Positions 276-14,283 of a stretch of 64,000 bases of DNA are shown here, piece after piece. Every line of letters starts with the position of its first letter. Positions within the stretch are counted from its first letter, which is position 1. The stretch covers positions 1 to 64,000 of the forward strand of contig DASYUH010000099.1 of assembly GCA_036001465.1 (NCBI GenBank), written 5' to 3'. This stretch comes from Candidatus Polarisedimenticolia bacterium. Its GTDB lineage: Bacteria > Acidobacteriota > Polarisedimenticolia > Gp22-AA2. A model generated the notes under the pieces. The model saw only the letters and a list, made by a program, of their open reading frames with translations, did not search any database and was not told where the DNA came from. The position numbers and the translations under genes are program-made.

Positions 276-1715
276 CTAGCGCGAAGCCCCTCCACCGGTC
301 GCGCCGCGCGACTTGCGCCGGGCGACGCCGGTCCGGATGGCCGCTTCCGAGACGGCGGCGGCCACGGCGGGCACGACCCGGCTGTCGAACATCGAGGGCG
401 TGATGTATTCCACGCCGAGCTCCTCGCGCGTCACGATCGCCGCCAGCGCCTGCGCGGCCGCGAGCTTCATCTCGTCGTTCACCCGCCGCGCGCGTACGTC
501 GAGCAACCCGCGGAAGAGTCCGGGGAAGCAGCACGAGTTGTTGATCTGGTTCGGATAGTCCGACCGCCCGGTGGCCATGACCCGTACGTACGGGCCGGCC
601 TCCTCGGGCTGGATCTCCGGAACCGGGTTGGCCATGGCGAAGACGATCGGGTCACGGTTCATGGCCTTGATGTCCTTGAGGGCGACGACGCCCGGGCCCG
701 AGAGGCCGACGAAGACATCGGCGTCCTGGAGCGCGTCGCCCGCGGTTCCGCGGACCTTCTTCTCGTTGGTGTGCTTCGCGAACCACTCTTTCATCGGGTT
801 CATGTTGTCCACGCGACCCCGGTAGAGCGCGCCCGCGCGGTCGCAGGCGATGATGTGCTTGGCACCCGCGCGCATGAGGAGCTTCGCGGTCGCGATGCCG
901 GACGCGCCGGCGCCGGTGAACACGATGCGCGCATCGGTCAGGCGCTTCTTCACGATCTTGAGCGCGTTCAGGAGCGCGGCGAGGACCACGACCGCGGTGC
1001 CGTGCTGGTCGTCGTGGAACACGGGGATGTCGAGGTCGCGCTGGAGCTTTTCCTCGATGTCGAAGCACCGCGGCGCGGAGATATCCTCCAGGTTGATCCC
1101 ACCAAAGACCGGCGAGATGGCCTTCACGATCGCGACGATCTCGTCCACGTCCTTGGTCGCCAGACAGATCGGGAAGGCGTCCACGCCGGCGAACTCCTTG
1201 AAGATGAGCGCCTTTCCCTCCATCACCGGCTGGGCGGCGCTCGGGCCGATGTCGCCGAGGCCGAGCACGGCGGTGCCGTCGGTGACGACGGCCACGGTGT
1301 TCTGCTTGATCGTCAGCGCGTACGCCTTCTCCGGGTCGTGGTGGATGGCCATGCAGACCCGCGCCACGCCCGGCGTGTAGGCCATGGAGAGGTCGTCGCG
1401 GGTCTTGACGCTCATCTTGCCCCGCACCTCGATCTTCCCGCCCAGGTGCATGAGGAACGTGCGGTCCGAGACGTTGACGACCTTCGCCCCCTCGACCGCC
1501 CGGATCCCGTCGACGACCTGCTGGCCGTGCGACTCGTCGCTCGCCTTGAAGGTGATGTCGCGCGTGATCGTCGACTTGCCGACGACGACCAGGTCGATGG
1601 CGCCGATGTCGCCGCCCGCCTTGCCGATCGCCGAGGTGACCCGGCCGAGCATCCCGGGCTTGTTCACGATCTCGAGCCGGACCGTGATGCTGTAGCTGGC
1701 GCTTGGAGCCTGCAT
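276..1715 (-). CDS. ACT-domain NAD(P)-dependent malic enzyme
   Basis: Oxidatively decarboxylates malate to pyruvate in the cytosol. The 479-residue form starts at the ATG that follows a GGGGAGG ribosome site; an upstream ATG would add 20 unlikely residues. An N-terminal ACT domain (about residues 8-80, containing NKPGMLGRVTSAIG) suggests allosteric control by a small ligand. The malic enzyme core follows, with MAYTPGV carrying the catalytic Tyr near 113, EGKAL with the Lys near 168, metal ligands in NLEDI and HDDQHG, and a dinucleotide-binding GAGASG near 268. It lacks the phosphotransacetylase domain of MaeB-type enzymes. It leads an operon with a DUF3311/symporter pair, so it may help use an imported organic acid. 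Cofactor preference is not decided. Confidence 0.93.
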   Translation of the reverse strand: MQAPSASYSITVRLEIVNKPGMLGRVTSAIGKAGGDIGAIDLVVVGKSTITRDITFKASDESHGQQVVDGIRAVEGAKVVNVSDRTFLMHLGGKIEVRGKMSVKTRDDLSMAYTPGVARVCMAIHHDPEKAYALTIKQNTVAVVTDGTAVLGLGDIGPSAAQPVMEGKALIFKEFAGVDAFPICLATKDVDEIVAIVKAISPVFGGINLEDISAPRCFDIEEKLQRDLDIPVFHDDQHGTAVVVLAALLNALKIVKKRLTDARIVFTGAGASGIATAKLLMRAGAKHIIACDRAGALYRGRVDNMNPMKEWFAKHTNEKKVRGTAGDALQDADVFVGLSGPGVVALKDIKAMNRDPIVFAMANPVPEIQPEEAGPYVRVMATGRSDYPNQINNSCCFPGLFRGLLDVRARRVNDEMKLAAAQALAAIVTREELGVEYITPSMFDSRVVPAVAAAVSEAAIRTGVARRKSRGATGGGASR

Positions 1716-1902
1716 GCGGAGCCTCCCCGACCGGGTGCCCTCATCCCTTCCCGGTCTTGACGCGGCGGGCAACACCCGCCACGAGTGCGCGGTATTCTAC
1801 AACAGTCGGGTCCGCGAGGCCGGTCGGAGCCGTGGGCGGCGGGCAGCGAGGTGCATTGCGGCTCTGTACAGGCGGTAGTAGGCTCGGACGCGGAGGCTAC
1901 CC

Positions 1903-3747
1903 ATGATCGACGTCAAGACCGCCGACCGGGAGCTGCAGTTCTACATCCGGCCCCAGACGTTCCCCGTAGCGATCCGGATGCTCAAGCCCGGTGAGGAGAT
2001 CCCCGAGAAAGCGAAGCGGCCCGCGCGCGACTTCAAGAAGCTCAGCATGAACTGCCAGGTCATCGACATGGCCCGGCGGTACGGCTGGATGATCGCGCTC
2101 ACCCGCGAGGATCACATCTGCTCCCTCGGCATCGCGGCCCTCGGCTTCGAGAAGCCGACGCATCTCCACAGCTCCGGGACGCTCTGCGAAGGCATGTACA
2201 CGGCGACGAAGACGGCCGGGGAGCGCTCCGAAGCCGCCGTCGACCGGTTCGCACCCGGCGAATACGCCTGCCTCCTGGTCGCGCCGCTCGACCGCACGCC
2301 GTTCGAGCCGCACCTCGTCTGCATCTACGCCAACCCGGCTCAAGTCATGCGCCTCACCCAGGCGGCACTCTGGAAGCGCGGCGGGAAGCTCACCTCCTCC
2401 TTCGGCGGTCGCATCGATTGCTCGGAGATCATCGTGACGACGCTGCGCACCGACGCGCCGCAGCTCATCCTCCCGTGCTCGGGCGACCGGATCTTCGGCC
2501 AGACTCAGGATCACGAGATGGCGTTCACCATTCCCTGGGGCCAGATGGAGGAGATCATCGAGGGCCTGAAAGGCACGCACGCGGGCGGGATCCGGTACCC
2601 GATCACGCAGTTCATGGAGTACGAGGCCAAGCTCCCGTCCCGGTACATGGAGGCCAACCGCGTCTGGGACGTGGAGCACGGCCGCGCCCACTACACGCCC
2701 CGCGAGCGCGTCGTCGCCGCGTACAAGCGCTCGTTCGCCGACCGCGTGCCGGTCTACCCGATCGTCGCCTCGTTCGCCGGCACCCTCGACGGCCTCTCGA
2801 TCGAGGAGTACTGCACGAACGTCCCGAAGGCGATCACGGCGATGCTGAACTACTACGAGCGCTATGAACCCGATGTCGTGCTGGCCTACAACGATCTGGC
2901 CAAAGAAGCCGAAGCCTTCGGATGCCACGTGAAGTACTCGGACTATGTCGTGCCGTCCATCGACCGGCACGTCCTCCAGGACGACAAGGCCCTGCTCGCG
3001 AAGCTCGCGATGCCCGATCCGTCCAAGACGGCGCGCCTCCCCGGATTCCTCGAGCAGTGCGAGGCGCTCGTGAAGGCGAAGCCCCCGACGGCGATCGGCG
3101 CGGTGGCCGTGGGACCGTGGACGATCGCGATGCTGCTCCGGAACCCCGAGACAATGCTCCTCGACACGTTCGAGGACCCGAAGTTCATCCATGACCTGAT
3201 GCGGGTCACGACCGACTTCTGCAAGCTCTGGGGTGACGCGATCGCGAAGACGGGCATCGGGCTCAGCTTCTCGGAGCCCACCGCCTCGATCAGCCTGATC
3301 TCGCCCGACAATTACCGGGACTTCGTCGCGCCCTACCACAAAGAGCTGGTCGAGTACTTCAAGGCCAAGAAGGTCGGCGTGACGACGCACATCTGTGGGA
3401 CGACGTATCCGATTTACGAGGATCTGATCGCCTGCGGCTTCACGACGGTCTCGTTCGACCTCGACCAGCAGGCCGACCCGAAGCTCTACGTGGACCAGCT
3501 CCGGCGGTTCACGGAGGTGTCACGCGGGCGTGCCGTCGCGATCGGCAACGTGGACGCGACGAAGTTCGAGAAGACGACCAAGGAGGCGATGGAGGCCGAC
3601 GTCCGGCGCTGTATCGATACGGCGGCGAGGTCCTCGGCGTTCATCCTGTCCACATCGTGCGAGATCCCACCGCGCTCGGATCCCGACGCCGTGCGATGGT
3701 TCATGGACACGGCGCGCGAGCACGGACGTTACGACCGGATCTTCTAA
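1903..3747 (+). CDS. DUF169-uroporphyrinogen decarboxylase/MtaA-type fusion protein
   Basis: A 614-residue two-part protein. Residues about 10-225 resemble DUF169 (for example SSGTLCEGMY and the later FGGRIDCSE). Residues about 265-614 resemble the UroD superfamily, closest in style to corrinoid/methyltransferase MtaA-like members: GPWTIAM, FSEPTASISL, and the zinc-type HIC motif at 496-498 with a late Cys at 586 (STSCEIPP). This pattern fits methyl-group transfer with a thiol or corrinoid partner better than true porphyrinogen decarboxylation, but the substrate is unknown. The gene stands alone, divergent from the malic enzyme, with a stem-loop pair after it. A GCGGAGG ribosome site precedes the ATG. 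No corrinoid-binding protein is encoded nearby. Confidence 0.8.
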   Translation: MIDVKTADRELQFYIRPQTFPVAIRMLKPGEEIPEKAKRPARDFKKLSMNCQVIDMARRYGWMIALTREDHICSLGIAALGFEKPTHLHSSGTLCEGMYTATKTAGERSEAAVDRFAPGEYACLLVAPLDRTPFEPHLVCIYANPAQVMRLTQAALWKRGGKLTSSFGGRIDCSEIIVTTLRTDAPQLILPCSGDRIFGQTQDHEMAFTIPWGQMEEIIEGLKGTHAGGIRYPITQFMEYEAKLPSRYMEANRVWDVEHGRAHYTPRERVVAAYKRSFADRVPVYPIVASFAGTLDGLSIEEYCTNVPKAITAMLNYYERYEPDVVLAYNDLAKEAEAFGCHVKYSDYVVPSIDRHVLQDDKALLAKLAMPDPSKTARLPGFLEQCEALVKAKPPTAIGAVAVGPWTIAMLLRNPETMLLDTFEDPKFIHDLMRVTTDFCKLWGDAIAKTGIGLSFSEPTASISLISPDNYRDFVAPYHKELVEYFKAKKVGVTTHICGTTYPIYEDLIACGFTTVSFDLDQQADPKLYVDQLRRFTEVSRGRAVAIGNVDATKFEKTTKEAMEADVRRCIDTAARSSAFILSTSCEIPPRSDPDAVRWFMDTAREHGRYDRIF

Positions 3748-3848: not shown

Positions 3849-4232
3849 CTACCACTTGACGGGTTTCGACGGCCGGTGGGCGTAGCCGCTGTCGCGCCCG
3901 CCGCCCGGGCCCCGACCCCCGCCCGGACCACGTCCGCCGCCCGGGCCCTTGCCGCCAGGCCGTGGCCCGCCGCCGCTGCGCTGGCCCTGTGGGTTGGAGA
4001 TCTCGACCGTGATCTTCCGGCCGTCGAACTCCCGCCCGTTGAGCTGACTGATCGCGTTCTGCGCCTCTTCCGCCGTCGCCATCTCGACGAAGCCGAAGCC
4101 ACGCGATTGCCCCGAGAAGCGGTCGGTGATCACGGTGGCTGACAGAACGTTCCCAGACTGGCTGAAGAACTCACGAAGTCCGTCGCTCGTCGTCGAGTAC
4201 GCAAGACCGCCGATATACAGTTTGGACGCCAT
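3849..4232 (-). CDS. RRM-domain RNA-binding protein with Gly/Arg-rich tail
   Basis: A 127-residue single-RRM protein. The start is the ATG after GAGGGGG; a longer reading upstream lacks a ribosome site. The RRM spans about residues 3-81, with RNP2 (LYIGGL, 5-10) and RNP1 (RGFGFVEM, 44-51) intact, so it should bind single-stranded RNA. Residues 86-117 are Gly/Arg/Pro-rich with a repeated GPGGGR unit, like the glycine-rich RNA-binding proteins of cyanobacteria and many other bacteria, which are often cold-induced. It stands alone with about 200 bases of noncoding sequence upstream. Its RNA targets are not evident. Confidence 0.9.
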   Translation of the reverse strand: MASKLYIGGLAYSTTSDGLREFFSQSGNVLSATVITDRFSGQSRGFGFVEMATAEEAQNAISQLNGREFDGRKITVEISNPQGQRSGGGPRPGGKGPGGGRGPGGGRGPGGGRDSGYAHRPSKPVKW

Positions 4233-4433
4233 GTGAACCCCCTCGAACTTCTTCCGCTGGTCGTACACGCCCCGCGAACCGGAAGATACGTTGCGTCGGA
4301 GGCGAGATTCGGCCGATCCGGCCGACAGGTCCCAGTGTACACGCGCAGCCGGAGCGCGCAAGAGACGAAGCACGGGAGCGGTCGCGCGCGACGTCCCTGT
4401 CCCGCCCGGACCAAATGTCCGCGAGCGCCACGA

Positions 4434-5039: not shown

Positions 5040-7139
5040 CTAACGAAATTCCTCCGGCTTGATCCCGTACGCGATCAGCTTTCGGTAGAGCGTCTTCGGG
5101 TCGATGGCGAGCAGCGCCGCAGCCTTGCCCCGGTGACCGCCGACCTCGCGCAGCGTCGCGACGATGTGCTGGCGCTCCATCGCCTGGAGGCTCGCCGCTG
5201 ACGACACGGCCGGGGTCGACGGCGTGCCAAGGAGCTCCGGCGGCAGGTCCTCGGGCTGGATCTCCTCGGCCTTCGAGAGGATCGCGGCCCGCTCGATCGC
5301 GTGGAGCAGCTCGCGGACGTTCCCGGGCCACGCGTACTCCTCGAGCACGGCGAGGGTGCGAGGACCGAGCTGCCTGGCACCGTAGGTCGCGTGGGCCGCG
5401 ACGAAGTGACCGGCCAGGAGCGCGATATCCTCGCGGCGCTCCCGGAGGGGCGGCAGCCTGATCGTGATCGTGTTGATCCGGTAGTACAGATCCTGGCGGA
5501 ACTCACCCGCCTTCATCGCCTCGGCGAGGTCGCGGTTGGTCGCCGCCACGAGCCGGACGTCCACCCGCCGCGGTCGGATCGCGCCCACGCGGAAGAAGGT
5601 GCCGGCCTCGAGGGCGCGCAGAAGCTTCACCTGGCTGTCCGGTTCCAGCTCGCCGATCTCGTCGAGCAGGAGCGTGCCGCCGTCGGCCAGCTCGACGAGT
5701 CCGGGCTTGGCACCGACCGCGCCGGTGAACGCCCCCTTCTCGTGGCCGAAGAGCTCCGACTCGAGGAGCGTCTCCGGCAGCGCCGCGCAATTGAGCCCCA
5801 CGAAGGGACCGCCGGATCGCGGCGAGCCCCGGTGGATGAACCGGGCCACGACCTCCTTACCGGTCCCGGACTCGCCGGTGAGCAGGACGGTCGTCTCGGT
5901 CGGCGCCACCTTGGCCGCCTGGGTCAGGGCGCTCTTCCAGGGCTTGGAGTCGCCGATGACGCGGTGATAGCCGAGAGTCGTGTCCAGCTGCGCCTTCAGC
6001 GCCTGCACCCGCTCTTCGAGGTGGGTGGCGCGCTCCCGCGCCTCCGTCGCACGCTTCTCCTCTTCGGCGAGGCGCTGGTGGGAGAGCGCCAGGCTCACGT
6101 GGTCGGCCACCCGGCGCGCCACGACCACGTCCTCCTCCGAATACCGGCCCGGGGAGCGCGACAGGAAGAGCAGCCATCCGCGGCCGCCGTCGACCCGCAG
6201 AGGAATCTTGAGGAGGGATCGAATGCCGAGCTGCCGGCAGCCGGGACGGGGGCCGGCGCACTTCTCCGACTGCGCCTCGACGTCCGGGATGAGGACGTAT
6301 TCCGCTCCCTGGGGGCAGTCCGGCGCGTCCGACGCCGGCATCCGGGTCGGCAGGCCCGGGATCGGCTCGCCGGAGATCGCATCGACGGTGATCTCGCTCT
6401 GGTCGGCGCTGAGGGAAGTCAGCACGAGGCGGTCGTGTGGCAGGACCGGCTGCACGGTCTCCGAGACCCGGTTGAAGATGCCGCGCACGTCCAGCGTCCC
6501 GGCCAGCATCGGCAAAAGCGAATCGATCGCGTCCAGGCGGCGCCGGCGATCCGCCTCCAGGCTCCAGAGGCGCTCGTGCTCCAGGGCCAGGCCGAGCAGG
6601 TCGGCGATCGGCTGGATCGCCGTCTCGTGATCGGCGGTGAACGCCCCCGGGCGCTCCGAGGTGAACCAGACGCTGCCGATGAATTCCCCGCCCCGGGTCA
6701 GGGGCGCCCTGAGGATCGATCGGACCCCGCGCTCCAGGATGCTGCGGTCCATGGGGAAGGTGGGGTCGAGCAGCAGGGCCGCGTCGTCGATCCGGCCCGC
6801 GGACCCCGGACCCGACCGCATCAGCGGGGAAAAATCCTGGAGCCGCACGACCGGCGCGTGCCCCTCGTGGTTCATGGTCCCCGCCTTGGCATAGAGCCGC
6901 ATGGTCTCCGGCGTCTCGAGCCGCGACACTCCCATGTTGTCGAAGGGGAGGACCGTGGCGGCGGCCTCGGCCACGCGCTCGAAGACCTCCTTCAGCTCCA
7001 GCGTCTCCGAGACGATCCGCGCGATGCGGCTCAACGCCCCGGCCAGGGGACCGGGCTCCACCGGAGCGGCGCCGGCAGGCTGCAGGACCTGGGTGTGGCT
7101 CCGCAAGTCGTTATCGATGCCGGGAGGGCCGTTCCCCAC
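5040..7139 (-). CDS. Sigma-54-dependent activator with two GAF domains (FhlA/NorR type)
   Basis: A 699-residue enhancer-binding protein. Two GAF-type sensor domains occupy about residues 15-185 and 200-355, followed by a short coiled coil. The AAA+ domain has Walker A (GESGTGKE), the sigma-54 contact loop GAFTGA, Walker B ([11 protein letters not shown]) and the arginine-finger region. A Fis-type helix-turn-helix closes the protein ([20 protein letters not shown]). I prefer the GTG at 7139 because AAGGAG sits 8 bases before it; an ATG at 7181 would add 14 residues without a good ribosome site. There is no receiver domain, so the signal is probably a small ligand or redox cue sensed by GAF. 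Target promoters were not identified. Confidence 0.92.
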
Positions 7140-7254
7140 GATCGCAACTCCTTCCACTTCGTGGCGGGATGGACGGTGCATTTTACCACGCCGGCGGAAG
7201 AAGGGCCCGGGCGCGTTCCGGCCCCTGAGCCTGCCCGCGTCCTGGGCCGCACTC

Positions 7255-10593: not shown

Positions 10594-13500
10594 CTAGGGG
10601 GGCGTCGGGCAGCGGGAAAGATTCGGCAGCTCGGCCGACGACGAGTCGAACCCCAGCGTCCCCTCGCCGCAGATCCCCTCCCCGCTCGCCAGGTAGTAGA
10701 ACGCCGTCCCGTAATACGGGTCGGCCAGGTCGATCGAGCGCGTCGGGCCGTTGGCCATGAAGTCGGCGTTCTCGAAGCAGACATGGTCGTAGCGCAGAGC
10801 GGCGGGACGGCTGCCGAGTCCGCCCAGGCGCGGGATGGTGCCGCGGTAGCTGTTCCAGTGGGTCGCCGCCGGCGTGGCGATCCACTCGAGGGTTACCGGC
10901 TGGGTGAACCCGAGGTCGGGCACCTCGGCCAGGGCCACCGGGACGTGCAGGCAGCCACCGGTCGCCGGCTCGCAGTGGTCGGCCGTGCAGGGGTCGCCGT
11001 CGTCGCAGCCGACCGGATCGTTGCGGCAGAGCCCGGTGGCCGGGTCGCAGGTGTCGCTCGTGCAGGGATTCCGATCGTCGCAGTCGGCCGGGCCGGCGGG
11101 GATGCAGGTCCCCGCGAAGCAGGTGTCCTCCTCGGTGCAATAGTTGCCGTCGTCGCACGCCATGCCGTTGGGCTCGTTGGCGTGGACGCAGCCGCCCAGC
11201 CGCCCGTCGCAGGAGTCGCGGGTGCAGGGGTTGCCGTCGTCGCACCCCAAGGACACGCTCAGGCAGGCGCCGGTCGCCGGATCGCAGCCATCGAGGGTGC
11301 ACGGGTTCCGGTCGTCGCAGCTGACCAGCGGAACCCCGGCGCACAAGCCTCTCTGGCAGGCATCGAACTCCGTGCAGATGCTCTCGTCGTCGCAGGGAAG
11401 GCCGTCGGGCTCGGAGAGATGGCGGCAGCTGCCGGTCTGGGCGTCGCAGAAGTCCCGGGTGCAGACGTTCCCGTCGTCGCACGGCAAGGGGGAGAAGATG
11501 CACTGGCCGGTCTCATCGTCGCACAGGTCCACCGTGCAGGGGTCCCCGTCGTCGCAGGTCCGCTGCACGCTTTGGCAGGACCCGCTCTCCGGCTCGCAGT
11601 AGTCGTGGGTGCACGGCTGGCCGTCGTCGCAGGGGGTCGGGCCGCATCCCTGGTCCACCGCCTGGAACCCCGAGGGGCCCGGCGGCCGATCGAGCATCCC
11701 CTCGGCGAGGAGGGAGTCTGCGGAATCCACGATCCGGTTCCCGTCCAGGTCGGCCGCACCGCAGCGGCGCGCCAGATCGAGGAGGACCGGGCTGGGCGGA
11801 AAGCGATCGCCGCCGCCGATGGTCCTGGGCTCGGTGAGGGGAAAGGTCAGTGACAGGTCGGCCCGGTCGCAGTCATTCACCGCGGCGACGTCGAAGGGGG
11901 TCACCAGCAGGTCGCCGTCCAGATCGGCGTCGCAGGCGTTGCCGAAGCCGTCGCCGTCGGCGTCGGTCTGATCCGGGTTGGCGATCTCCGTGCAGTTGTC
12001 CGCGAAGTCGGGCAGCGTGTCGCGATCCAGATCGGCGAGTGGTGTGGTGGGCGGTCCCGGTTTTACCCACGTGGCCCCGAGGTCGAGCGTCAGCCCCCCT
12101 GTGCCGTCCGACACGGGGGCCAGCTCGAGAAGCTGGCCGTGGGTCGTTTCGCGCGCATGGACCTGCGAAGCGTCGTACTCGGCCACGATCGCGACCAGCT
12201 GGTTGGTCCGGCGCGACCGGATCTCCAGCCGCACCGGATCGCCGAGCCTCTGGAGCCGCGCTCCGCCGGTCGCTGTCGCCCCAGCGCCCGCCCCCACTCC
12301 CTCTCCGGGCTCCGCGACGCCGGTCGCGTTCACCGCCGCGAAGTCCCCCTGCAGCGCCAGGGCCGACTGCGAGATGGCGAACCCGGCCAGCGGCTGGATG
12401 TACAGCTTGCGGTTGACGATCTCGAACGAGTCGAACCGGATGCGCTCCTGGGGATTGACCAGGCTCACCAGATCCAGGAAGAACTCCTCGCACCCCCCGC
12501 CGAGACAGACCATCCAGATCGGCGGGCAGGGCATCGGCGCCCCGAACGGAACGCAGATCGTCCCGGGCTCGATGGGACACGGATCGAAGCCGTTGACCCC
12601 CGGCTGGCAGCCCCCCGGGGGAATGCCGATCGCCCCCTTCTGGCCCGGCAGGTACGGCCCCCCCTGATCGCAGATTCCGTCGTTGTCGTCGTCCACGTCC
12701 GAGCAGTTCCGCGCGCCGTCGCCGTCCGAGTCGTCCCCCTCGAAGCCGTAGGTCGGCTCGGTGCCGGTCCCGCACCCCGACTCGAAGTGGCTGCCGACGA
12801 CCACCTCCCCCTGCGACGGGTGCTGGTCCTTGATGTTCTTGCAGCCGTCGCCGTCCTTGTCGTCGTCGCACAGGTCCCCCTTGCCGTCCTTGTCGAGGTC
12901 CCCGGTCGGCAGCGGAATGTCGGGGCACAGATCGCACGCGTCCCCCTGGCCGTCGTGGTCCCTGTCGGCCTGCGAGGTGTTGGCGTGCTTCGGGCAGTTG
13001 TCGTCGATCTGGCAGATGCCGTCCTGGTCGGGGTCGCCGCCCCGCGGCGCGCACACGTCCGGCAGGTTCTGGCGCTCGGGGAGCCCATTCTTGCAGGTCG
13101 TGAACACGTCGAGCGAGTCGCTCGAGAACGGCTCGTAGGTGACGCCGTTGATCGTGTACGGCCCGGAGCACGGCCAGCCGTAGTAGGACATCGTCTGGAA
13201 CGGCTCGGTGCCAACGTTCAGCGGGTTGTTGGAGCCGTTCTGCCGCTGCACGCAGGAGACCGAGCAGAACCTCCGGTGCGCGCTTCCCGAGTCCACCAGG
13301 AGCGGGCCGAGCGCCACCTCCGTGGCGGCGCACCACTCGTGGCCGTTGCGCAGGCTGCCATTCGAGCTCACGTCGGAGACGGCCGGGAAGTCCGGGTCGT
13401 ACTTGTCTTCGAGCACTCCCGGGTCGGGGGCCGTGTCGTTGACGCCGCAGCAGTCGTCCAGGTCGTAGTCCGGCGGGTTCGGCGCGGTCTCCAGCGAGTC

Positions 13501-14067
13501 CTGCCAGGTGAACGTGTGCACCAGGCACCAGTGGTGCCCCATCTCGTGCGCCCAGACCTGACCCATGTACTCGGAGCCGCGGTCCTTGTTCGCGTCGCAG
13601 AGAATGCCGTACGTGTTCGGGAACGCGTCCTCCGCCGGATCGCCGCCGATCGGACCCTGCGGGATGTGCGAGCAGCACATGTTCGGACCCTGGGTGATCA
13701 GCATGTTGATCGAGAGCGGGAACGCTGTCGCCACCATCGTCCGCCACTGCTGCCGCCGGTTCTCGATCACCTCGGAAACGCCCGGCGCGCACCCCTCCGT
13801 CTCGTTGTAATACCCGTCCACCTTCACCGAGAAGAGGATCGGCCGGAACGAGATCCCCGACTTCCGCCACACCAGGTTCGTCTCCTGCACGGCATCGAAG
13901 ACGAACGTGCGGAAGTCCTGCACCGAGTCGTGCCCGCAGGCCGAGTCGAAGCAGTACGGCCAGAGGTACAGGTCGTAGGTGACCGCCTTCGCGGCCCCGC
14001 TCCCCGCCAGGACGATCGCGACCGCCAGGACCAGCCTGCCGACCCGCCTGCCGATGTTCCGGTTCAT
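10594..14067 (-). CDS. Large secreted cysteine-rich protein with metzincin-like zinc motif and thrombospondin type-3 repeats
   Basis: An 1157-residue exported protein; the start is the ATG after a GGGGGGG run, and a signal peptide ends near KAVTYD. The N-terminal domain (about 25-340) contains WAHEMGHHWCLVHTF, a metzincin-like HExxHxxxxxH, and many Cys. Next come calcium-type thrombospondin type-3 repeats (for example DPDQDGICQIDDNCPKH and DRDHDGQGDACDLCP), then a beta-rich central part, another TSP3-like block with a dockerin-like stretch (DLDGNRIVDSADSLL), and nine CDDG-type cysteine repeats. The last 95 residues form a separate domain. It is probably a calcium-stabilised surface or secreted protease, but the usual metzincin Gly is replaced by Cys, so activity is uncertain. 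It stands alone on the minus strand. Confidence 0.85.
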   Translation of the reverse strand: MNRNIGRRVGRLVLAVAIVLAGSGAAKAVTYDLYLWPYCFDSACGHDSVQDFRTFVFDAVQETNLVWRKSGISFRPILFSVKVDGYYNETEGCAPGVSEVIENRRQQWRTMVATAFPLSINMLITQGPNMCCSHIPQGPIGGDPAEDAFPNTYGILCDANKDRGSEYMGQVWAHEMGHHWCLVHTFTWQDSLETAPNPPDYDLDDCCGVNDTAPDPGVLEDKYDPDFPAVSDVSSNGSLRNGHEWCAATEVALGPLLVDSGSAHRRFCSVSCVQRQNGSNNPLNVGTEPFQTMSYYGWPCSGPYTINGVTYEPFSSDSLDVFTTCKNGLPERQNLPDVCAPRGGDPDQDGICQIDDNCPKHANTSQADRDHDGQGDACDLCPDIPLPTGDLDKDGKGDLCDDDKDGDGCKNIKDQHPSQGEVVVGSHFESGCGTGTEPTYGFEGDDSDGDGARNCSDVDDDNDGICDQGGPYLPGQKGAIGIPPGGCQPGVNGFDPCPIEPGTICVPFGAPMPCPPIWMVCLGGGCEEFFLDLVSLVNPQERIRFDSFEIVNRKLYIQPLAGFAISQSALALQGDFAAVNATGVAEPGEGVGAGAGATATGGARLQRLGDPVRLEIRSRRTNQLVAIVAEYDASQVHARETTHGQLLELAPVSDGTGGLTLDLGATWVKPGPPTTPLADLDRDTLPDFADNCTEIANPDQTDADGDGFGNACDADLDGDLLVTPFDVAAVNDCDRADLSLTFPLTEPRTIGGGDRFPPSPVLLDLARRCGAADLDGNRIVDSADSLLAEGMLDRPPGPSGFQAVDQGCGPTPCDDGQPCTHDYCEPESGSCQSVQRTCDDGDPCTVDLCDDETGQCIFSPLPCDDGNVCTRDFCDAQTGSCRHLSEPDGLPCDDESICTEFDACQRGLCAGVPLVSCDDRNPCTLDGCDPATGACLSVSLGCDDGNPCTRDSCDGRLGGCVHANEPNGMACDDGNYCTEEDTCFAGTCIPAGPADCDDRNPCTSDTCDPATGLCRNDPVGCDDGDPCTADHCEPATGGCLHVPVALAEVPDLGFTQPVTLEWIATPAATHWNSYRGTIPRLGGLGSRPAALRYDHVCFENADFMANGPTRSIDLADPYYGTAFYYLASGEGICGEGTLGFDSSSAELPNLSRCPTPP
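10935..11640 (-). repeat. Nine tandem CDDG-type cysteine repeats (protein-level)
   Basis: Within the large secreted protein, nine units of about 24-28 residues follow the pattern CDDGxPCTxDxCDxxTGxC. Units 3-5 and 6-8 match each other in order: a unit ending in an EPxG linker, then a CT-E-D variant, then a CDDRNPCT unit. The array therefore seems to have grown partly by duplication of a three-unit block of roughly 79 residues. The pattern resembles the CTDC repeats of Dictyostelium matrix proteins and is common in secreted proteins of environmental bacteria. Confidence 0.85.
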
Positions 14068-14283
14068 CGTGTGCCCCCCCGCCACGCCCGGATCGGTCCC
14101 GCCCCACCGGGCGGATGTCCGGCGCCTGGTCCCTTCTCCAGGGATTACGCAAAAGGTCCGCCGGCCGGAGCAGAAATCAACCAGAACCCGGGCTATTTCC
14201 CCGGATGGCGCATGTTTTTCGGTGGATGCAACGCGGCTATCGGTCCGTCGTGCCCGGGGAGGTGTCCCGCCCCCGCTCTCCCC

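Follow-up and report, generated by a model that had tools for sequence, protein, structure and literature searches.

A fusion of DUF169 with an MtaA-like methyltransferase domain, conserved in Candidatus Rokubacteria and possibly a corrinoid methyltransferase with a built-in redox module

Among the closest described relatives of the protein discussed here are MtaA and MtbA, the methylcobamide:coenzyme M methyltransferases, which belong to the uroporphyrinogen decarboxylase (UroD) superfamily and are represented by the MtaA structure 4ay7 from Methanosarcina mazei and by the family model TIGR01463. Two further lines of work bear on how such enzymes may be recognised: PMC10418091, concerned with the Mlps, takes a His-Cys-Cys set of residues to indicate an S- or Se-methyltransferase, and PMC13222342 reports a UroD-superfamily methyltransferase, CdmB, to be zinc-free. 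DUF169 (COG2043), present in archaea and many bacteria, is far more obscure: the papers we found mention it as a neighbour of SepRS genes and as an entry in a nitrate-fitness table for Desulfovibrio, and none of them gives it a function. Nor did our literature search find a paper naming both DUF169 and uroporphyrinogen decarboxylase; the fusion of the two is thus one on which we found no paper, and a variant of a known enzyme type.

The window – the whole stretch of 64,000 nucleotides analysed, from a genome assigned to Candidatus Polarisedimenticolia – carries this fusion as one uninterrupted frame of 614 residues, with its ATG at 1903 and its stop at 3747 (Table 1). A reading of the sequence alone had described a DUF169 half followed by a UroD half in a single chain, and Pfam bears this out, with both domains far above their cut-offs (187 bits against 27 for PF02596, 196 against 23.9 for URO-D). 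Structure modelling agrees: DUF169 modelled alone from 28 sequences reached the scores given in Table 1, and the full-length model (50 sequences; pLDDT 83, pTM 0.61) has 4ay7 as its top match, followed by uroporphyrinogen decarboxylases, with the C-terminal half covering MtaA at a target TM score of 0.87 and a linker that falls below pLDDT 50 at residues 233–244. By these models, DUF169 as an insertion in, or a part of, the UroD fold can be excluded, each half being predicted to fold as a domain of its own.

Table 1. Coordinates of the fusion gene, its parts and its surroundings in the window
Feature	Position	Strand	Basis or remark
Fusion gene, 614 aa, DUF169 + MtaA-like UroD-superfamily domain	1903..3747	+	single ORF, Pfam
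DUF169 domain, aa 11-221	1933..2565	+	Pfam PF02596, 4.3e-55; solo model pLDDT 83, pTM 0.81
Near-invariant C51, C73, C173, C192, proposed cluster ligands	2053..2478	+	22-sequence alignment
Interdomain linker, aa 222-264	2566..2694	+	gap between Pfam envelopes
UroD-superfamily, MtaA-like methyltransferase domain, aa 265-607	2695..3723	+	Pfam PF01208, 1.3e-57; 4ay7 best by sequence and fold
H496-I-C498, proposed zinc ligands	3388..3396	+	aligns with HIC of MtaA 4ay7; conserved
C586, proposed third zinc ligand	3658..3660	+	conserved
Rokubacteria-like segment, contig end	1..5910		similarity ends within regulator gene
Malic enzyme, N-terminal ACT domain	276..1775	-	neighbour; order same in Rokubacteria
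RRM RNA-binding protein	3849..4373	-	neighbour; order same in Rokubacteria
GAF-GAF-sigma54 regulator	5040..7181	-	hybrid: C-terminal part Rokubacteria-like, N-terminal half not

The fusion is a real and conserved protein. Of the 78 loci retrieved from GTDB genomes, 48 are fusions, some of which are truncated by a contig edge or carry a frameshift. Their carriers are Candidatus Rokubacteria and relatives plus one record labelled Alicyclobacillus; the latter (L027) holds a Rokubacteria-type fusion at 86% identity and is probably a mislabelled genome. When the same domain order was sought throughout the phylum that contains Candidatus Rokubacteria, it was found in 54 of 95 genomes, spanning at least 593 residues in 53 and cut at 505 in one, and two further genomes of the 95 carry the fusion in two pieces. 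It belongs to the usual gene complement of a single group of uncultured soil bacteria.

The kinship of the UroD half with MtaA, likewise suggested from the sequence alone, is supported by sequence, fold and residue set. MtaA of M. mazei is the sole PDB sequence match, with the HIC motifs aligned, and mtaA_cmuA is the best NCBIfam model (3.7e-35), even though the score for that family, TIGR01463, stays below the curated cut-off (121.8 against 235.4 bits). Two features expected of the family are there: a UroD-type barrel that is closest to MtaA by both sequence and fold, and the His-x-Cys plus late Cys set, for which zinc binding is predicted. The HIC motif and late Cys noted earlier correspond to H496-I-C498 and C586, invariant across the 67 rows without gaps in an alignment of 73, and match the zinc-ligand set of MtaA. 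Identity to M. mazei MtaA, the sole coenzyme M methyltransferase compared, is 22–23% in the fold alignment, against the >25% applied to Mlps. The zinc assignment draws by analogy on MtaA and on the His-Cys-Cys argument made for Mlps in PMC10418091, and corrinoid methyl transfer by this half is likely, judging from sequence features. The RACo ASKHA domain (PF14574) did not appear in the fusion protein in a Pfam search with E up to 1. A HemE (TIGR01464) identity was also considered and rejected, because the score is low (36.9 bits against a cut-off of 302.95) and a second URO-D gene elsewhere in the same genome scores 425 bits.

The score below the mtaA_cmuA cut-off, together with a weak Pfam hit to PF01717, the domain of cobalamin-independent methionine synthase (E 0.087), would also suit an enzyme of another kind, namely a zinc-dependent thiol alkyltransferase, or a decarboxylase-like enzyme, that works without corrinoid and whose corrinoid linkage is simply an inherited neighbourhood. 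Such an enzyme would fit, too, with the absence of a visible corrinoid gene at 44 of the 48 fusion loci, whose flanks reach up to 8 kb. Against it stand the position of the protein, closest to MtaA in sequence and fold, and the retention of the linkage while the intervening genes change; we regard it as a doubtful reading, perhaps one chance in a handful or slightly better.

In 36 of 56 fusion-bearing genomes, a gene for an MtgC/MtbC-type corrinoid protein shares a contig with the fusion, at a spacing of 2.6–20 kb and never further; its ortholog lies on another contig in 17 and was not found in three. These counts come from related genomes and are hence non-independent, and the same applies to co-occurrence across the 95 genomes (53 with both genes, three with the fusion only, nine with the corrinoid gene only, 30 with neither), for which the Fisher value of 1.6e-13 ignores descent and is not to be taken as a probability; seven of the nine corrinoid-only genomes hold partial fusion matches. 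In this home lineage the two genes do not form an operon, and the varying interval between them may hold a two-component system, an amidase or a homocysteine methyltransferase/methylenetetrahydrofolate reductase, or be all but empty. In the Rokubacteria loci read, the corrinoid gene is followed by a homocysteine S-methyltransferase gene, whose product has the Cys and Cys-Cys motif of that family. In one genome outside Rokubacteria (G201), genes for the corrinoid protein, the S-methyltransferase and a product weakly resembling the MetH activation domain stand consecutively, about 4 kb from the fusion, with a spacing of 5.1 kb for the corrinoid gene. As judged by sequence, the linked genes are the parts of a methionine synthase minus the methyltetrahydrofolate module.

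The sequence-only reading had called the gene solitary, which is right within the window but misleading, given the 36 genomes with a linked corrinoid gene; its statement that context does not reveal the substrate was partly wrong as well, since the home lineage offers both the corrinoid gene and, where read, the homocysteine S-methyltransferase gene. As to corrinoid equipment, all 12 fusion-bearing genomes searched (that of the window included) hold a B12-binding_2 protein and 10 of the 12 a RACo-type reactivator, and most fusion genomes also contain long corrinoid-domain frames resembling full MetH. Because MetH-like frames and a separate reactivator are present in most of the genomes, the fusion is needed neither for methionine synthesis nor as a second activase. 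At two Rokubacteria loci (L199 and L201), the gene for a RACo-type reactivator has in its vicinity a further member of the UroD family, one that lacks the H-x-C motif.

The alignment of the DUF169 half comprises 22 diverse rows, drawn from 36 loci (six without a DUF169 ORF and two, L100 and L109, spurious) after seven near copies or doubtful rows had been left out. C51 and C73 are present in all 22 and C173 in 21; at position 192, 14 rows have Cys, seven Asp and one Gly, and C95 is not conserved. In the DUF169-alone model, the loop around C192 is poorly modelled (pLDDT below 50 at 193–202). No relative emerged from the PDB by sequence (best E 2.1), Foldseek gave no clear match to the model (best E 0.26) and the PDB fold search yielded no cluster-binding fold relative; VIA-align, limited to folds that Foldseek had found, reached at best a Z of 4.7, to PLP lyases and thiolases, a commonplace and uninformative value.

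The neighbours of unfused DUF169 genes add a few hints. Among the loci read, one genome has the gene downstream of homologues of NuoF and NuoG, a second groups it with genes for a ferredoxin and a SufB-like protein, and in a third it adjoins a FeMo-co-family gene; the neighbours at the remaining loci seem unrelated. The neighbour gene lists omit some loci (L140–L145), and the ORFs at compared loci come from a simple custom caller, some being spurious. Viral contigs gave no DUF169 relative and plasmids a single record, from Cupriavidus, next to a fatty-acid CoA ligase gene. In the phylum of the window's genome, three genomes of one genus (G113, G122 and G085) hold 11, eight and five DUF169 matches, and a fourth member of that genus holds one.

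It had been suggested from the sequence that the role of DUF169 may be to bind or present a methyl donor or acceptor, or else a corrinoid protein. In that case the enzyme would be the same methyltransferase, with cysteines that are structural or zinc-binding, and the fusion together with its linkage to a corrinoid protein gene would fit. Yet a search of 30 unfused DUF169 loci with seven UroD and corrinoid queries (E 1e-6, flanks of varying length) returned no UroD or corrinoid relative at any of them, and the nearest UroD paralog manages without DUF169, so that we consider a binding role of this kind unlikely. Since none of the 30 loci shows such a relative, DUF169 evidently works elsewhere without methyl transfer, and a methyl-transfer-specific role for the family as a whole is unlikely. 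The conserved cysteines and the few telling neighbours (NuoF/NuoG, ferredoxin/SufB-like, FeMo-co) point instead to a metal or redox role: DUF169 would bind a metal, and the guess we favour, with roughly an even chance, is an iron–sulfur redox function.

The paralog just mentioned is a UroD-only gene of Rokubacteria, about 67% identical to the second half of the fusion. In our tree, which included a row with a frame error (L053) and long-branched outgroup rows and was used only for the nesting of these genes and the position of the window protein, the 21 UroD-only rows form one clade inside the fusions (100/99), which implies that DUF169 was lost there. At 15 of the 21 loci (L054–L076), a luciferase-like, F420-type oxidoreductase gene lies on the same strand within 94 bp, upstream or downstream of the paralog depending on the locus; at two more loci another such gene is 0.5–0.6 kb away, and four show none. 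The best NCBIfam models for this oxidoreductase are F420-dependent, with methylenetetrahydromethanopterin reductase lower and all below cut-off, and this oxidoreductase was not detected at any of the 48 fusion loci at E 1e-10. The pattern leads us to propose that one redox module, DUF169, may have been exchanged for another. A bolder version would have DUF169 as an unrecognised iron–sulfur redox domain through which the fusion carries its own reductive activator, the barrel reactivating its own corrinoid partner and the loss of the domain being balanced by the adjoining F420/flavin oxidoreductase gene; we think this quite improbable.

Taken as a whole, the evidence is best explained by a corrinoid methyltransferase that depends on zinc and carries a redox domain in the same chain, an explanation we hold tentatively, at just under an even chance. 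H496, C498 and C586 of the MtaA-like barrel would hold a zinc that makes a thiol, selenol or thioether reactive, and a methyl group would be exchanged between this substrate and the corrinoid cobalt of a second protein – in the home lineage, we infer, the MtgC/MtbC-type protein encoded beside the homocysteine S-methyltransferase gene. Because the partner gene occupies that place, the likely route would run from a methylated compound through the corrinoid to homocysteine, as in a split methionine synthase with a different methyl input. DUF169, for its part, would hold one iron–sulfur cluster on C51, C73, C173 and C192 and supply electrons, most simply by taking the Co(II) corrinoid to Co(I), or else keep the thiol reduced. 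Counting against this explanation are the mtaA_cmuA score below cut-off, the non-operon linkage and the variable fourth ligand, as well as the one row without C173, the poorly modelled C192 loop and the lack of a cluster-binding relative in the fold search.

The copy in the window has a history of its own. In the tree its protein is sister to that of a Rokubacteria locus, L007 (98/86), which holds the closest copy, and 76 of the 102 codons that differ between the two genes do so synonymously, which indicates that selection has acted on the gene, whether in this genome or earlier. At the nucleotide level, the resemblance to Rokubacteria extends from position 1 of the window, also the contig's first base, to 5910, with none beyond, and amounts to 93% identity to L007 over 286–3743. 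It stops inside the regulator gene, whose C-terminal 306 residues (408–713) are 82% identical to L007, while relatives of the host hold near-full-length regulator orthologs at 59–68% identity. With the similarity breaking off there and the segment lying at the end of the contig, the segment either was transferred recently or reflects a chimeric assembly, and the gene looks solitary here because this Rokubacteria-like piece terminates a contig of a different lineage.

There is an even chance, in our estimate, that in this genome the gene is a non-working part, a Rokubacteria piece that arrived by chimera or transfer without its partners; this concerns the present copy and says nothing about the protein. 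The 93% identity to L007, the break within a regulator with a host-like N-terminal half and the place at a contig end speak for it, as does the fact that the window's genome, which lies outside the 95 of the Rokubacteria phylum, is alone among 60 relatives examined in having the fusion. Speaking for a working copy are the open frame of the hybrid regulator, the host's own corrinoid protein and reactivator on another contig (C52) and tetranucleotide use nearer to the genome's own contigs (0.80–0.81) than to Rokubacteria loci (0.73–0.77), a comparison in which the window is mostly host DNA; composition slightly favours the segment belonging to the host but cannot decide. The native cluster on C52 (L191, 8060–13146) comprises genes for a corrinoid protein with 40% identity to its Rokubacteria counterpart, for an AcsV-like reactivator and for a methyltetrahydrofolate:corrinoid methyltransferase. 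Elsewhere in the window, positions 10594–14085 appear by eye to encode a large secreted-looking protein with a metalloprotease-like HExxH and Cys-rich and calcium-repeat-like regions. No riboswitch or other RNA family reached its gathering score in the window or in nine loci.

For DUF169, without an assigned function in the papers found and without a sequence relative in the PDB, the fusion, a lineage that lost the domain and a conserved cysteine set together yield a testable redox-domain hypothesis. In Candidatus Rokubacteria, soil bacteria that are uncultured and known chiefly through their genomes, the fusion also suggests a way by which a methylated compound, perhaps one containing sulfur, might be used to make methionine.

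Set beside known systems, the fusion shares with MtaA and MtbA the UroD fold, the aligned His-x-Cys, the late Cys and a TM score of 0.87, and departs from them in its identity of about 23%, its score below the curated cut-off, its added DUF169 and linked genes that indicate homocysteine. With the Mlps of type 1 mlp gene clusters, as PMC10418091 presents them, it has in common the His-Cys-Cys set and the presence of a corrinoid protein and a reactivator in the same genomes; it differs in forming no operon with them, in its linked homocysteine S-methyltransferase gene and in DUF169. The demethylases and dehalogenases CdmB, MtvB, OdmB, VdmB and CmuA, which according to PMC13222342 use corrinoid, are of the same superfamily; CdmB is described there as zinc-free, in contrast to the conserved putative zinc set of the fusion, and CmuA as a methyltransferase and corrinoid protein in one, where the fusion has DUF169 instead. 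RACo, RamA and AcsV resemble it only in the job proposed for DUF169, the supply of electrons for corrinoid reactivation: they have no domain in common with it, and a separate RACo-type gene accompanies it in 10 of 12 genomes. The linked genes, finally, correspond to the homocysteine and corrinoid modules of MetH as separate proteins, in one case with an activation-domain-like gene, whereas no methyltetrahydrofolate domain was seen among them; the fusion would be a different methyl input.
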